From Sanguibacter sp. HDW7 (GTDB lineage Bacteria; Actinomycetota; Actinomycetes; Actinomycetales; Cellulomonadaceae): 64,000 nt of DNA. Shown piece by piece: positions 5,052-62,201 of the stretch; within the stretch, counting starts at the first letter, position 1; each line of letters begins with the position of its first letter. The notes under the pieces were generated by a model that worked only from the letters and a program-made list of their open reading frames with translations, searched no databases and was not told the DNA's origin. The position numbers were made by a program, and so were the translations under genes. The DNA is taken from the NCBI RefSeq assembly GCF_011300875.1, contig NZ_CP049862.1, positions 434,001 to 498,000 of the forward strand, written 5' to 3'.

Positions 5052-6983
5052 CTACTTCGCGTCCGCGTAGCTCGTCACCGCGGCGACGCTGAGGCGGAAC
5101 TCCACGCCGTTCTCGCCCGCGGGGCCGAAGAGGATGCGCCCAGCCTCGACCGCCGACTCCTCGACGATCCGTACGACCTCGTCCGCGAGATGCGCGGGCG
5201 TGTGGATGACGACCTCGTCGTGGAGGAAGAAGACGAGGTGCGGCCCGGCGGTCGCCCCGAGGATGCCTCGGGAGGCGTCGTCGCCCGTGTCGGGCGATCC
5301 CGTGTCGGGCGATCCCGCGCCCAATGGTCCTGCGTCCGACGGTCCTGCGTCCGACGGTCCTGCGTCGGACGACCCTGCGTCGGACGACTCGGTGTCCGCG
5401 ACCGCGAGCGCGTGGAGCCGTTGCCGGAGCACGGCCATCCAGCACAGGGCCCACTCGGCGGCGGTCCCCTGAACGATGAAGTTCCGGGTGAACCGTCCCC
5501 AGGCTCGGGCGCGCGACTGGCTCGCGGAGGCCGAGGACCGTTCGGCGCGCTCGACCGCGCGTTCGTCGGAGGGGCCCTCACCGCCGCCCTCGCCGGGCGG
5601 CCCCGCGAGCCCCGCACCGGCCCCGCCGCCGTCGTCCTGTGATCCGGTCCCGGGACGTCCCCACGCGCCGCCACCAGGGCTGACGCCACCGGACTCCGGC
5701 AGCGGCGACGTCCGCCCGAGCCACGTCATGACCTGCTCGCCGCGCTCCCCGGCCTCCGCGGCGCGCTCGACGAGGCCGATCGCGGCGGGGAACGCGCGTC
5801 GGAGCTGCGGCAGCACCTGCCCGGAGACACCCTGCGTGCCGCCGTACATCGCGCCGAGCATCCCGTACTTCGCGTGCTGCCGGTCGACGACGGCGCCCGA
5901 GGCGACGATGCCCTCGTACATGTCCGTCGCGCGGCCCGCACGCGCCATCGCGCCGTCGCCGCTCATCGCGGCGAGCACGCGGGGCTCGAGCTGGGCCGCG
6001 TCGGCGACGACGAAACGCCACCCGTCGTCGGCGCGCACCGCGTCGCGCACGACGTGCGGGAGCTGGAGGGCGCCGCCGCCGTCGGACGCCCAGCGGCCCG
6101 TGACGACGCCGCCGACGACGTAGACGGGTCGGAACCGGCCGTCGTGCACCCAGGTGTCGAGCCACGTCCAGCCGTTCGCGGTGAACAGGCGTGACATCGT
6201 CTTGTACTCGAGCAGGGGCGCGACGACGGGATGCGCGACCGCCTGCAGCTCCCACTTCGACGTCGAGGTGACGGGCAGGCCCGCGCGGCGCAGCGCGGCG
6301 AGGAGGTCGACGGGGGAGTCGGGGTTGACGGGGCCGACGCCGAGCGCGTCGCGGACCTCGGCGGCCTTGGCCTCCATGAGGGCGGGCCGGTAGCCGTCGG
6401 GCACGCGGGCGCCGAGCTCGCGCGCGAGGATCTGGTCGTGGACGTCGGCGCGCCAGGGCAGGCCGGCGGCGTGCATCTCGGCGGCGACGAGCGCGCCGAC
6501 GGACTCGGCGGCGAGCAACGTACCGAGTCGTGCGGCGTGACGTCCCGCGGTCTGCAGCGCCATGAGCTGGGCACGGAGCTCGACGACAGGGTCGGGCGGA
6601 GGGGCTGCGCGGCCGAGCTCGAAGAGCGGCTCGGCGGTCGCGGGGGCGCCCGGTGCGGGGGCAGGGCGGCGTGGTGCGTCCCACGCGTCGGGGGCGCTGC
6701 GGCCGAGCACCGACATGGCTGTCCACAGGCTGTGCCGGAGGATGGCTCTGCACAGGCGCAGGTCGTGGCAGCGGTCGACGCGCACGCCGGCCGCGAGCAG
6801 CGGCGGGTAGGCGTGCTCGGTGTCCGCCCAGGTCCATCGTGGGTGGAGCGTGCGCTCGAGCTCGACGACGCTCGCTGCGAGCGCGTCGTCGTCGACCGTG
6901 CGCAGGATGCGCGGCGGACCGTCCGCGCTCACGGTCGTGAGCGCGGTGCGGCCCCCGGGCATGGGGACGACGACGACGTACAT
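5052..6983 (-). CDS. Family A DNA polymerase-like protein (actinobacterial short form)
   Basis: A 643-residue protein matching the actinobacterial 'bifunctional 3'-5' exonuclease/DNA polymerase' group. The N-terminal ~150 residues fill the exonuclease position (CHDLRLCRAIL segment) but show no canonical DxE site. The polymerase part carries a variant motif A, DAAQLEPRVLAA (usual form DYSQIELR), motif B KYGMLGAMYGG, a NFIVQGTAAEWA segment, and motif C HDEV. Two low-complexity insertions break the domain: a Gly/Pro/Ser/Glu-rich stretch (~residues 420-480) and a Ser-Asp-Ala-Gly-Pro repeat encoded by 5281-5400. There is no 5'-nuclease domain. The gene is divergent from the trpS leader. Activity is likely but unproven given the motif A changes. 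Confidence 0.85.
   Translation of the reverse strand: MYVVVVPMPGGRTALTTVSADGPPRILRTVDDDALAASVVELERTLHPRWTWADTEHAYPPLLAAGVRVDRCHDLRLCRAILRHSLWTAMSVLGRSAPDAWDAPRRPAPAPGAPATAEPLFELGRAAPPPDPVVELRAQLMALQTAGRHAARLGTLLAAESVGALVAAEMHAAGLPWRADVHDQILARELGARVPDGYRPALMEAKAAEVRDALGVGPVNPDSPVDLLAALRRAGLPVTSTSKWELQAVAHPVVAPLLEYKTMSRLFTANGWTWLDTWVHDGRFRPVYVVGGVVTGRWASDGGGALQLPHVVRDAVRADDGWRFVVADAAQLEPRVLAAMSGDGAMARAGRATDMYEGIVASGAVVDRQHAKYGMLGAMYGGTQGVSGQVLPQLRRAFPAAIGLVERAAEAGERGEQVMTWLGRTSPLPESGGVSPGGGAWGRPGTGSQDDGGGAGAGLAGPPGEGGGEGPSDERAVERAERSSASASQSRARAWGRFTRNFIVQGTAAEWALCWMAVLRQRLHALAVADTESSDAGSSDAGPSDAGPSDAGPLGAGSPDTGSPDTGDDASRGILGATAGPHLVFFLHDEVVIHTPAHLADEVVRIVEESAVEAGRILFGPAGENGVEFRLSVAAVTSYADAK
5281..5400. 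repeat. 15-bp in-frame tandem repeat inside the polymerase gene
   Basis: Eight consecutive 15-bp units, the four between 5326 and 5385 nearly identical (GGTCCTGCGTCCGAC type on the plus strand). They encode five-residue units of the Ser-Asp-Ala-Gly-Pro type. Because the unit is a multiple of three, copy-number change would keep the frame. Confidence 0.8.
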
Positions 6984-7024
6984 GCCGTCATTCTCCGACG
7001 AGCCACCGACATCCGGCGCAGGGG

Positions 7025-7030
7025 TAGCCT
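7025..7030 (+). promoter_or_regulatory. -10 box for the trpS leader transcript
   Basis: TAGCCT sits 6 nt before the ATG of the leader peptide, the spacing expected for a leaderless transcript starting at or next to that ATG. No clear -35 is visible. Confidence 0.4.
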
Positions 7031-7036
7031 TGCCCC

Positions 7037-7078
7037 ATGACTTCGCACGCGTGGTGGTGGCTGCAGCTGCAGCCGTGA
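7037..7078 (+). CDS. trpS leader peptide (Trp-Trp-Trp)
   Basis: A 13-codon reading frame encodes MTSHAWWWLQLQP then stops, 87 nt before trpS. Three consecutive Trp codons (7052-7060) in a 13-residue peptide directly ahead of a tryptophanyl-tRNA synthetase gene are the classic signature of ribosome-mediated attenuation: scarce charged tRNA-Trp stalls the ribosome and changes downstream RNA folding. A TAGCCT box 6 nt upstream suggests leaderless translation. It is too short for normal gene calling. Confidence 0.75.
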   Translation: MTSHAWWWLQLQP

Positions 7079-7165
7079 CCCGACGTGTCCACCGAGCTGC
7101 CCCGTGCAGCCTCGGCAGACGACCGGTGCGACGGGACGCTCCCTCGAGAATCCTGGAGATGCACC
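7059..7165 (+). promoter_or_regulatory. Candidate attenuator between the Trp leader and trpS
   Basis: A stem-loop forms from CCGAGCTGC (7092-7100) with GCAGCCTCGG (7106-7115, one bulged C). Its 3' arm GCAGCC (7106-7111) can instead pair with GGCTGC (7059-7064), which overlaps the third Trp codon. The two folds are mutually exclusive, as attenuation requires. No U-tract follows, so control could be by ribosome-binding-site access rather than termination. The trpS ribosome-binding site GGAG is at 7155-7158. Confidence 0.55.
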
Positions 7166-8227
7166 ATGTCCGAGACCGCGACCCTCGACGCTGCGCGCGC
7201 CCGCAGCGCCCGCCTCGAGCAGCAGATCGCCCAGAACCCCGGCCAGTTCCGCGTCCTCACGGGTGAGCGCCCGACGGGGCCGCTGCACCTCGGCCACCTC
7301 GTCGGCACGCTCGCCAACCGGGTGCGTCTGCAGGAGGCGGGGGTCGAGCTCATGCTCATCCTCGCGGACTACCAGGTCATCACGGACCGTGACGAGATCG
7401 GCGACCTGCGCGCGACGATCCGCGAGATCCTCCTCGACTACGTCGCCGTCGGCATCGACGTCGAGAAGGCGACGATCTTCACGCACTCGTCGGTCCCCGC
7501 GCTCAACCAGCTGCTCCTGCCGTTCCTCTCGCTCGTCTCCGTCGCGGAGCTCGACCGCAACCCGACGGTCAAGGCGGAGACGGCCGCGACGGGCGGCCGT
7601 GCGATGAGCGGCCTCATGCTCACGTACCCCGTGCACCAGGCGGCGGACATCCTCTTCTGCCACGGCAACGTCGTGCCCGTCGGGCAGGACCAACTGCCGC
7701 ACCTCGAGATGACGCGCGTCGTCGCCCGCCGCTTCAACCAGCGGTACTCGCCGGACGCGCCGTACTTCCCCGAGCCCGCCGCGCTGCTCGCCCCGTCGCC
7801 GACCGTGCTCGGCACGGACGGCACGAAGATGAGCAAGTCGCGCGGCAACGCGCTCATGCTCTCGGCGACGGAGGACGAGACGGCGCGCTGGGTCAAGCGT
7901 GCGAAGACCGACACGGAGCGACGCATCACGTACGACCCCGCGAGGCGTCCGGAGGTCGCGAACCTCCTCGACCTGCTGGCGCTCGCGACGGGCGAGGACG
8001 CGGCCGCGGCCGCCGAGCGCATCGGCGACGGCGGCGCGGGCGTCCTCAAGCGTGAGCTCACGGAGGCGCTCGTCGAGCACCTCCGCCCCCTGCGGGAGCG
8101 GCGTGCCGCCGCGGCGTCGTCGGGCGACGACGTGCTCGAGATCCTGCGCCGCGGCAACGCGCGCGCGAACGAGCTCGCGGACGCGACGCTCGCCGACGTC
8201 CGACGACTCATGGGGACCGACTACTGA
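7166..8227 (+). CDS. trpS: Tryptophanyl-tRNA synthetase
   Basis: A 353-residue class I aminoacyl-tRNA synthetase that charges tRNA-Trp in the cytoplasm. The HIGH motif appears as HLGH (residues 41-44) after GERPTGPL, the KMSKS motif is exact (residues 221-225), and the conserved GQDQLPHLEMTR loop is present between them. The ATG at 7166 is chosen over the GTG at 7085 because GGAG lies 7 nt upstream and family members start close to the LEQQIAQNPGQFRVLTG region; the upstream stretch is leader RNA. The Trp-codon leader upstream implies induction by tryptophan starvation. It overlaps the next gene by one base. Confidence 0.96.
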   Translation: MSETATLDAARARSARLEQQIAQNPGQFRVLTGERPTGPLHLGHLVGTLANRVRLQEAGVELMLILADYQVITDRDEIGDLRATIREILLDYVAVGIDVEKATIFTHSSVPALNQLLLPFLSLVSVAELDRNPTVKAETAATGGRAMSGLMLTYPVHQAADILFCHGNVVPVGQDQLPHLEMTRVVARRFNQRYSPDAPYFPEPAALLAPSPTVLGTDGTKMSKSRGNALMLSATEDETARWVKRAKTDTERRITYDPARRPEVANLLDLLALATGEDAAAAAERIGDGGAGVLKRELTEALVEHLRPLRERRAAAASSGDDVLEILRRGNARANELADATLADVRRLMGTDY

Positions 8228-60043: not shown

Positions 60044-60079
60044 ATGTTCGCGACGACCAGCTGGTGGCACCGCCTCTAG
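60044..60079 (+). CDS. trpL: trp leader peptide (Trp-Trp)
   Basis: Eleven codons, MFATTSWWHRL and TAG, with two adjacent Trp codons (60062-60067) near the end. It lies 94 nt before an anthranilate-synthase gene and directly ahead of a complete attenuator. The leader is too short for ORF callers. Ribosome stalling at the Trp codons under tryptophan shortage should favour the antiterminator. Confidence 0.88.
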   Translation: MFATTSWWHRL

Positions 60080-60173: not shown

Positions 60174-62201
60174 ATGACCAGGACCGACGTTCCTGCCGAC
60201 GACGCATCCGCGCAGCCCACCCCTCCCGGTGTGTCGGGCGATGCCCGCGTGCTCGAGGCCGAGCCCGCGCCCGGCGCCGACCCGGCGTCGGTCGTCGCGA
60301 GTCTCCGCCCGCCGTTCGCGCTCCTCGCCCGCGAGGGCGGCGACGTCGAGGTGCTCACGGGCACCGCGGTCGACGTCGACCTGCTCGACGAGATCCCGCT
60401 GCACGACGCGGCCGGCCGTCCGCGGGAGGTGCTCGCGCTCGTGCCGTTCCGGCAGGTGCGTGAGCTCGGCTTCGACGCGGTCGACGACGACGCCCCGCTG
60501 CGCTGCCTCGTCGTCGACGAGCGCCGCGTCCTTGTGCGGGCCGACGCGCTCGCGGCGTTGCCCGCGGAGCCCGTCGACGTGGTCGACGAGGGCTTCGACA
60601 TCGACGACGACGCGTACGCGCAGACCGTGCGGCGGGTCGTGACCGACGAGATCGGGCGTGGGTCGGGCTCGAGCTTCGTCGTGCGCCGTGACCGCCGGGG
60701 GCGCGTCGACGCGGACGCCGTGACCGCGGCGCTCACGTGGTTCCGCAGCCTGCTCGCGACGGAGACGGGCGCGTACTGGACGTTCGCGATCGTCACGGAG
60801 GGGCACGTCGCGGTCGGTGCGACGCCCGAGGTCCACGTGTCGGTGCGCGACGGCGAGGTGACGATGACGCCGATCTCGGGGACGCTCCGGCACGGTGCCG
60901 AGCCACCGACGCGCGAGCAGATGCTCGAGTTTCTCGCGTCGACCAAGGAGACCGAGGAGCTCTTCATGGTCGTCGACGAGGAGCTCAAGATGATGAGCGC
61001 GGTCTGCCCGGACGGCGGGCGCGTCTCGGGACCGTTCCTGCGGCCGATGTCGCGCCTCACGCACACGGAGTACGCGCTCACGGGCCGTACGCACCTCGAC
61101 CCGCGGGACGTGCTGCGCGCGACGATGTTCGCGCCGACCGTCACGGGCTCGCCCATGCGTTCGGCGTGCACGGTCCTCACGCGGCACGAGGGACGTGGGC
61201 GCGGCTACTACTCGGGCGTCGCGGCGCTCTTCACGCCGCGCCCGGGCGCCGAGGGGGCCGCCGCCTCCCACGACCTCGACGCCCCGATCCTCATCCGCAC
61301 CGCGTACCTCGCGGGCGGCCGGCTCACGGTGCCGGCGGCCGCGACGATCGTGCGCCACTCCGACCCCGCCTCGGAGACGGCGGAGACGACCGCGAAGGCG
61401 TCGGGCGTCCTCGGGGCGCTCGGTGTCGTGCCGCGGCCCGTGCGCGCCCCGTCCCGGGACGGGGCGCACACGGACCCGGGCGTGCTCACCGCGCTCGCGG
61501 CCCGCAACGCCCGCCTCGCATCCTTCTGGCTCGAGGACCAGGGCGCACCCGCGACGGCCGGTCCTGTGGACGCACCGGCCACGACGGTGCCTGTGGGCAG
61601 GCCGACGCGCGCTGTCGTCGTCGACGCGGAGGACGCCTTCACGACGATGCTCGCCCACCAGCTCCGTCACCTCGGCCTCGAGGCCGTCGTCGTGCCCTGG
61701 GACGCCGTGACGGACGACGATCTCGACGCGGCCGACCTCGTCGTCGCCGGCCCCGGCCCGGGCGATCCCCGCGACGGCTCGCCGCGCCTCACGCGGCTCC
61801 ACGACGTCGTCGGGCGCCGGCTCGCGCAGCGCAGGCCGCTGCTCGCGGTGTGCCTGAGCCACCAGGTGGTCGCGCACCGGCTCGGGCTGCCCGTCGAGCC
61901 GCTGCCCGCGCCGCGGCAGGGGATTCCGCTCGAGATCGAACTCGACGGGCAGCAGGCGCTCGTCGGCTTCTACAACACCTTCGCGGCGTACGTCGCCCCG
62001 GGCACGGAGGCGCTGACGACGGACGTCGGCGAGGTGCGCGTCGCGGCGGGCGCGGCGGGCGAGGTCCACGTGCTGCGCGGGGAGGCGTTCGCGAGCGTCC
62101 AGGGCCATCTCGAGTCGGTCCTCTCGCGCGACGGCCTCGCGGTGCTGCGCACGCTCGTCGGGCACGCGCTCGCTGTGCGACCTGGCGTGCCGGCGGTCTG
62201 A
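60174..62201 (+). CDS. Anthranilate synthase TrpE-TrpG fusion (PhzE-like architecture)
   Basis: A 675-residue fusion. The N-terminal chorismate-binding domain (residues ~30-440) includes MTPISGTLRHGAEPP, TKETEELFMVVDEELKMM, LRPMSRLTHTEYALTG and GRGYYSGVAALF; the C-terminal glutamine amidotransferase domain (~478-670) has VVAGPGPGDPRDGSPR, the catalytic Cys in VCLSHQ (~residue 560, usual form CLGHQ) and the His/Glu pair in VQGHLES. It makes anthranilate from chorismate and glutamine; the same order occurs in PhzE, so aminodeoxyisochorismate synthesis cannot be fully excluded, but the trp leader argues for tryptophan. ATG 60174 is chosen for AGGAG at 60164-60168. Confidence 0.92.
   Translation: MTRTDVPADDASAQPTPPGVSGDARVLEAEPAPGADPASVVASLRPPFALLAREGGDVEVLTGTAVDVDLLDEIPLHDAAGRPREVLALVPFRQVRELGFDAVDDDAPLRCLVVDERRVLVRADALAALPAEPVDVVDEGFDIDDDAYAQTVRRVVTDEIGRGSGSSFVVRRDRRGRVDADAVTAALTWFRSLLATETGAYWTFAIVTEGHVAVGATPEVHVSVRDGEVTMTPISGTLRHGAEPPTREQMLEFLASTKETEELFMVVDEELKMMSAVCPDGGRVSGPFLRPMSRLTHTEYALTGRTHLDPRDVLRATMFAPTVTGSPMRSACTVLTRHEGRGRGYYSGVAALFTPRPGAEGAAASHDLDAPILIRTAYLAGGRLTVPAAATIVRHSDPASETAETTAKASGVLGALGVVPRPVRAPSRDGAHTDPGVLTALAARNARLASFWLEDQGAPATAGPVDAPATTVPVGRPTRAVVVDAEDAFTTMLAHQLRHLGLEAVVVPWDAVTDDDLDAADLVVAGPGPGDPRDGSPRLTRLHDVVGRRLAQRRPLLAVCLSHQVVAHRLGLPVEPLPAPRQGIPLEIELDGQQALVGFYNTFAAYVAPGTEALTTDVGEVRVAAGAAGEVHVLRGEAFASVQGHLESVLSRDGLAVLRTLVGHALAVRPGVPAV

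Follow-up and report, generated by a model that had tools for sequence, protein, structure and literature searches.

The 64,000-nucleotide stretch of actinobacterial DNA analysed here (the window) carries a gene for a tryptophanyl-tRNA synthetase (TrpRS) that is directly preceded by a short open reading frame (ORF) with three consecutive tryptophan codons. Judging from the sequence and its relatives, this gene appears to encode an auxiliary TrpRS and is very probably controlled by ribosome-mediated attenuation. The kind of control is already known from Streptomyces. What is new is its breadth, the rewriting of the stem sequences, and the existence of Sanguibacter-type species that have the leader on the only TrpRS found in them.

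The leader peptide and its promoter

The leader ORF occupies positions 7037 to 7078 of the forward strand (ATG 7037 to TGA 7078). It translates into MTSHAWWWLQLQP, a peptide of 13 residues in which three tryptophans follow one another; their TGG codons lie at 7052, 7055 and 7058. The distance from its stop codon to the trpS ATG at 7166 is 87 nt. Promoter, leader and gene are arranged as follows.

7025 to 7030, forward strand: -10 box TAGCCT (TANNNT), 6 nt upstream of the leader ATG, predicted leaderless start
7037 to 7078, forward strand: leader ORF MTSHAWWWLQLQP with its stop codon, assigned from translation and conservation across loci
7155 to 7158, forward strand: Shine-Dalgarno sequence GGAG of trpS, assigned from sequence, before ATG 7166
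7166 to 8227, forward strand: trpS, tryptophanyl-tRNA synthetase (TIGR00233), closest solved relative D. radiodurans TrpRS II

With the -10 box ending 6 nt upstream of the leader ATG, the trpS mRNA probably starts at this ATG, a spacing of 6 to 7 nt being that of leaderless transcripts. Among 84 distinct leaders, the box is 6 nt from the start in 46 cases, 7 nt in 37 and 8 nt in 1, counts that reflect the pre-selection of these leaders for a TANNNT box 5 to 8 nt upstream. Of the 498 plus-strand ATGs in the window, 6 lie 6 or 7 nt downstream of a TANNNT box, and Trp leaders account for two of these six.

A chance ORF is ruled out by conservation in relatives, described below, and by Markov-1 simulations. 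In 30 simulated sequences of 64 kb, ORFs of 8 to 25 codons on both strands contained two consecutive Trp codons 1.4 times and three consecutive Trp codons 0.03 times for every 64 kb. No simulated ORF of this kind came with a TANNNT box at leaderless spacing, whereas two Trp ORFs of the real window do: the 7037-7078 leader and a second one at 60044-60079. Across the whole genome of 3.35 Mb, TANNNT-N5-8-ATG-N6-40-TGGTGG has 4 matches, compared with 1 for a reversed-pattern control, and two of the 4 are the window's Trp leaders.

Elsewhere, trpS genes are often under the control of T-boxes. No T-box or other Rfam family reaches its gathering score anywhere in the window, and no T-box is found among the 3 sub-threshold, chance-level Rfam matches of the region 6900-7300 around the leader. 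T-boxes frequently control the synthetases of Firmicutes, according to the excerpts of PMC1262725. Nevertheless, given also the conservation of the leader and the simulations, the probability that a chance ORF or a T-box accounts for the region is negligible.

A probable auxiliary tryptophanyl-tRNA synthetase

The first-pass annotation had described a 13-residue frame with three Trp codons directly in front of trpS. The frame is as described and the gene assignment is secure, since the product matches TIGR00233 with 231.7 bits (E=1.3e-68), above the cut-off of 176.75. A longer trpS frame from GTG 7085 was rejected: it would run through the hairpin downstream of the leader and has no visible ribosome site, so 7166 is taken as the start.

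The closest solved relatives of the window TrpRS are PDB entries 1yi8 (E 7.1e-65) and 2a4m (E 4.3e-64), both of them Deinococcus radiodurans TrpRS II. The genome has a second trpS gene, at 923315, whose product is 33% identical to the window enzyme over residues 19-347. In the following, type A denotes the kind of trpS found in the window, and type B the kind of the genome's other trpS. Being nearest to TrpRS II and accompanied by a second TrpRS in the genome, the window enzyme has the marks of a D. radiodurans TrpRS II-like auxiliary synthetase; it also shares an RPTG motif with TrpRS II itself. The type-A motif G[DEA]RPTG is present in 116 of 116 motifs caught by the search pattern. A mixed bin of remaining sequences, which also held type-A upstream stretches, yielded GMQPT in 4 of 5 motifs and GERPTG in 1 of 5; the type-B motif is GMQPT in the four found. 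The type-A arginine presumably sits at the position where lysine, not glutamine, gives S. coelicolor TrpRS1 its indolmycin resistance, and it is our guess that type A is resistant to TrpRS inhibitors such as indolmycin. As a side observation, TrpRS matches in three genomes (G417, G408 and G579) contain one to three in-frame stops, which may be due to alignment overrun.

The second trpS has no Trp leader in the 715 bases upstream, nor in locus L002. This bears on an earlier suggestion that tryptophan supply and tRNA charging would answer to the same signal. For charging, the suggestion applies to the trpS of the window, which has the leader, and fails for the second trpS; the switch would thus govern the spare enzyme, and not tRNA charging as a whole.

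The supply side of the suggestion fares similarly. A Trp leader had been claimed in front of trpEG, and the leader MFATTSWWHRL at 60044-60079 indeed precedes a TrpE/TrpG-like gene. It has a -10 box 7 nt upstream, again the spacing of a leaderless start, and a strong hairpin (-34.5 kcal/mol including flanks) comes after it. The gene downstream, at 60174-62201, has TrpE-like and TrpG-like parts, all of which score below the cut-offs. The genome's best trpE match (1551152) has no Trp leader in about 650 bases upstream, so that, among the anthranilate synthase genes, the shared signal was seen at the TrpEG-like gene only.

Four pairing segments

The leader and the region downstream contain four segments with overlapping complementarity.

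7059 to 7064, forward strand: segment 1, GGCTGC, which includes the end of the third Trp codon
7069 to 7074, forward strand: segment 2, GCAGCC, in the last codons of the leader
7092 to 7100, forward strand: segment 3, CCGAGCTGC, 5' arm of the presumed terminator hairpin
7106 to 7115, forward strand: segment 4, GCAGCCTCGG, 3' arm of the hairpin, with no U-tract after it

The alternative pairings 1:2, 2:3 and 3:4 have energies of -10.2, -10.2 and -13.6 kcal/mol. Mutually exclusive pairings, one of them over the third Trp codon, had been noted before, and they are borne out by these segments. Stems that exclude each other, with one lying over the regulatory codons, are a hallmark of attenuators, and are found here at the levels of sequence, energy and conservation. 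The fold of the region 7037-7185 is only modestly better than that of shuffled sequences (z -1.80, 10 of 200 shuffles as good), and the evidence for structure is therefore comparative and not thermodynamic.

The following mechanism is proposed. Transcription would start at or very near the leader ATG, and ribosomes would initiate on the leaderless mRNA. With ample Trp-tRNA, the ribosome would reach the stop codon and cover segments 1 and 2, 3:4 would pair, and trpS would be turned down. Tryptophan starvation or a block of the housekeeping TrpRS would make charged Trp-tRNA scarce; the ribosome would then stall on the Trp codons and mask segment 1. Segment 2 could then take segment 3 before segment 4 is made, 3:4 would not form, and the spare TrpRS would be expressed. 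Without translation, 1:2 would form and 3:4 would remain on. We infer the stalling, the timing of each stem and the stop of transcription by 3:4. At equilibrium, 3:4 is favoured over 2:3, and masking segment 1 does not keep the model from folding 3:4; the switching must therefore be kinetic and take place during transcription.

Complementarity of segments 1 and 2 is widespread: GGCTGC...GCAGC is present in 67 of the 84 distinct leaders, and GAGCTGC...GC(A/G)GC in 71. The 1:2 pairing is kept even where a stop codon separates the two segments and the peptide differs (for example at L152, L155 and L168); this suggests that the RNA, and not the peptide, is under selection. In the distant lineages represented by L014, L107, L128 and L211, the sequences are different, and 1:2, 2:3 and 3:4 complementarity is kept. 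The energies of their own segment 2 and segment 3 combinations are -14.0 (L014), -13.2 (L128) and -13.8 (L211), for segments that were picked by eye. Combining segment 2 of L014 or L128 with the other sets, each other's excepted, gives -4.9 to -12.2. A four-segment switch written with different letters in several distant lineages should be useful for studying how such switches evolve. In a class-wide test of 2:3 covariation, 2 of 10000 permutations did as well as the real pairs, a result that we give little weight, since the automatic hairpin picker was wrong in several loci.

Conservation in relatives

By a strict threshold, type A was found in 81 of 221 genomes of the same family, at 82 places, and 78 of the 82 upstream regions were read, four cut or partial places being left out. 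The criterion for a leader was a Trp-containing ORF of 7-26 codons whose start lies 5-8 nt downstream of a TANNNT box. At this promoter spacing, a leader with one to three Trp codons is present in 74 of the 78 regions, with two consecutive Trp codons in 67 and three in 38. The loci without leader are L022, L053, L167 and L173. By the same rule, none of 24 upstream regions of type-B genes has a Trp leader, and looser rules add one type-B case, L193 of genome G048. L003, a 93% relative of the window, has the leader, the Trp codons, the -10 spacing and all four segments intact, as in the window.

The best 80 named loci listed give a broader view. Leaders are found at 27 of them, including records from Flavimobilis, Sanguibacter hominis, Oerskovia, Promicromonospora, Cellulosimicrobium and Isoptericola, as well as one Cellulomonas, Austwickia and some Propionibacteriales. 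Among the same 80, the records of Brachybacterium, Nocardioides, Gleimia, Actinomyces and Schaalia do not satisfy this rule.

The first-pass annotation had tied its proposal to the conservation of Trp codons and stems in relatives, and would have abandoned it had they been absent. Both are conserved, and 3:4 covaries (see below). The attenuation of trpS by a Trp leader that it proposed is strongly supported at the sequence level by the conserved leaders together with this covariation.

The output hairpin

The core pairs of 3:4 are present in all 73 loci caught by the search pattern, and the outer positions take C-G, U-A, G-C, A-U and G-U pair types across these loci. In 38 non-redundant loci, 3:4 has an energy of -23.5 kcal/mol with its own arms versus -19.4 kcal/mol with swapped arms, and 0 of 5000 swaps were as good; own arms also beat swapped arms when the outer parts are considered alone. 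The hairpin is more than 2 s.d. better than shuffles in 35 of the 38 loci. RNAalifold on 33 sequences found 20 pairs, 4 of them with two-sided change, and a small covariation term (-0.72), which is explained by the invariance of the switching core within the family: the core must pair with two partners. The leader is thus followed by a conserved, covarying output hairpin, as in known attenuators. In genome G305, a terminator-like hairpin remains before the type-A trpS (L210), and the leader seems to have been lost, with stop-like codons in place of Trp codons.

How the hairpin acts is less clear. No U-tract follows it in the window, where the 8-nt windows searched contain at most 1 U. It is therefore not classed as an intrinsic (Rho-independent) terminator; termination is something we infer for the window, and release may need Rho or be weak. 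By contrast, 6 or 7 U are present in the 8 nt after the hairpin in 10 of 73 family-type loci, and several distant lineages have a U-run after the hairpin, such as CCCTTTT.

The missing U-tract would also fit Rho-dependent termination somewhere between the leader and trpS. A stalled ribosome would then prevent it, and the hairpin would serve as a pause site or a block. Rho has been proposed for other actinobacterial leaders that lack terminators, according to excerpts of PMC1262725. A hairpin that is kept and covaries across the family is, however, not demanded by Rho alone, and we consider this explanation unlikely.

Alternatively, the ribosome on the leader could govern access to the trpS Shine-Dalgarno sequence, and not transcription, with which the missing U-tract would also fit. 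A partly conserved element of uncertain role lies upstream of GGAG.

7139 to 7142, forward strand: CTCC, complementary to GGAG, within the partly conserved element

With one search pattern, a CTCC-like element was found upstream of GGAG in 49 of the 84 distinct leaders. At L046, L013 and other loci, a GC(A/G)GCTCC element 10-20 nt before the trpS Shine-Dalgarno sequence can pair either with the latter or with segment 3, and a stretch of 7 nt near the trpS start can pair over its whole length with segment 3 (G-U allowed) in 31 of 54 loci. The window has no such full 7-nt match near the start; like L003, it scores 5/7, which is shuffle-level. In the model of the window, moreover, accessibility of the Shine-Dalgarno sequence is nearly independent of the ribosome position (mean unpaired 0.58 to 0.79). 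Together with the U-run that follows the hairpin in several relatives and more distant lineages, this makes translational attenuation improbable.

It could also be that the window has an ancestral attenuator in decay, and that trpS is now constitutive or controlled otherwise. The window hairpin is weaker than the average among its relatives (shuffle z -2.03 versus a mean of -3.82), it has no U-tract, and the near-start element is not kept. Decay is nonetheless hard to reconcile with the intact leader, Trp codons, -10 spacing and four segments in both the window and L003, and we regard it as quite improbable.

Leader presence and TrpRS copy number

In a sample of 59 genomes, the leader precedes type A in 17 of 18 genomes with both types, and in 2 of 9 genomes with type A alone. 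A class-wide sample, in which 40 of 52 type-A places were read, gave a similar picture: the leader is present at 29 of 33 places with a second TrpRS match in the genome, and at 1 of 7 places without, with the proviso that the search scored few candidates per genome and may have missed a second TrpRS. Of the four misses, three do have a leader with three consecutive Trp codons, behind a NANNNT box; no leader precedes the remaining one, L210. When NANNNT is allowed as the -10 box, the count rises to 32 of 33. Among the negatives with type A alone, L239 had only 187 bases available upstream.

Pooled, 49 of 51 sampled genomes with a second TrpRS have the leader before the TrpRS II-like gene, G048 being one of the two exceptions, versus 3 of 16 genomes in which the TrpRS II-like enzyme is the only one found. 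Fisher's test gives p = 2e-9 for the association of leader and copy number. On a 27-row tree of type-A proteins, the leader changes state once, leaving 2 independent pairs (sign test p = 1). The 49 of 51 genomes are therefore not 49 independent events, and the Fisher p value is not used as evidence.

The genus of the window does not follow a single pattern. In G002 and G005, the only TrpRS found is type A, with an intact leader that has three consecutive Trp codons (L005 and L004), and G001 and G003 have type B alone. The genus thus offers a natural comparison of relatives with both enzymes, with the unregulated enzyme only and with the regulated enzyme only. That the actinobacterial Trp attenuator marks whichever TrpRS is the spare, and that in the Sanguibacter-type species G002 and G005 it sits on the sole TrpRS found, is a tentative reading, about which we have somewhat more doubt than confidence. 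If true, an essential synthetase in these genomes would answer directly to how far its own tRNA is charged.

The data suggest that the widespread second TrpRS is a reserve, a backup called up by failing tRNA charging. The backup reading makes a testable prediction about the response to tryptophan shortage and to natural TrpRS inhibitors.

Relation to known systems

The first-pass annotation had considered leader-peptide attenuation to be far less familiar for trpS than for trp biosynthesis. It is better known than this suggests, since such attenuators are already in print for Streptomyces (PMC1262725, PMC8079986). Attenuators of trpS were predicted in this genus in 2005 (Seliverstov et al., PMC1262725), and a leaderless trpL2-trpS transcript was mapped in S. 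lividans TK24 in 2021 (PMC8079986). Transcriptional attenuation mediated by the ribosome was reportedly described for the gene of an auxiliary, antibiotic-resistant TrpRS (Vecchione and Sello 2010, J Bacteriol 192:3565, a title cited in PMC4787780), and a 2015 conference paper cited in PMC4833913 deals with Trp attenuators of actinobacteria. For the family of the window, no paper on leader-peptide attenuation of trpS was found among those listed in the open-licence literature, which does not include most subscription journals.

According to the excerpts, S. lividans trpL2-trpS resembles the window in having a 13-residue leader on a leaderless transcript before trpS, with two hairpins downstream (PMC8079986). 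The excerpted text reports no U-rich stretch, and the window hairpin likewise has no U-tract. The S. lividans leader has one Trp codon (MMTRTCTQLWRAA), whereas that of the window has three. In S. avermitilis, a candidate classical attenuator precedes one trpS gene, trpS2, as in the window (PMC1262725). The trpS case in the excerpts of this paper concerns Streptomyces only, whereas the window lies outside this genus. The trp operon attenuators of Corynebacterium and Streptomyces in the same source are similar in their double or triple UGG codons and in an antiterminator and terminator that share a segment, but they differ in controlling biosynthesis and in having terminators with poly-U (PMC1262725). 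The system of Vecchione and Sello is, judging by its title, a spare TrpRS under a leader peptide, like that of the window, with experiments there and sequence analysis here. Taken with these precedents, the leaders found here would mean that control of a tRNA synthetase by a leader peptide reaches well beyond Streptomyces, into a large part of the actinobacteria. The organism used by Vecchione and Sello was reportedly S. coelicolor.

Two genomes depart from the usual arrangement of leaders. G048 has a type A without leader, and its other TrpRS (L193; 34% identical, 92 bits) has a candidate leader with two consecutive Trp codons and the hairpin GGCCGCCC/GGGCGGCC. G031 carries two type-A trpS genes (L008 and L134), each with its own Trp leader, plus one type-B gene.
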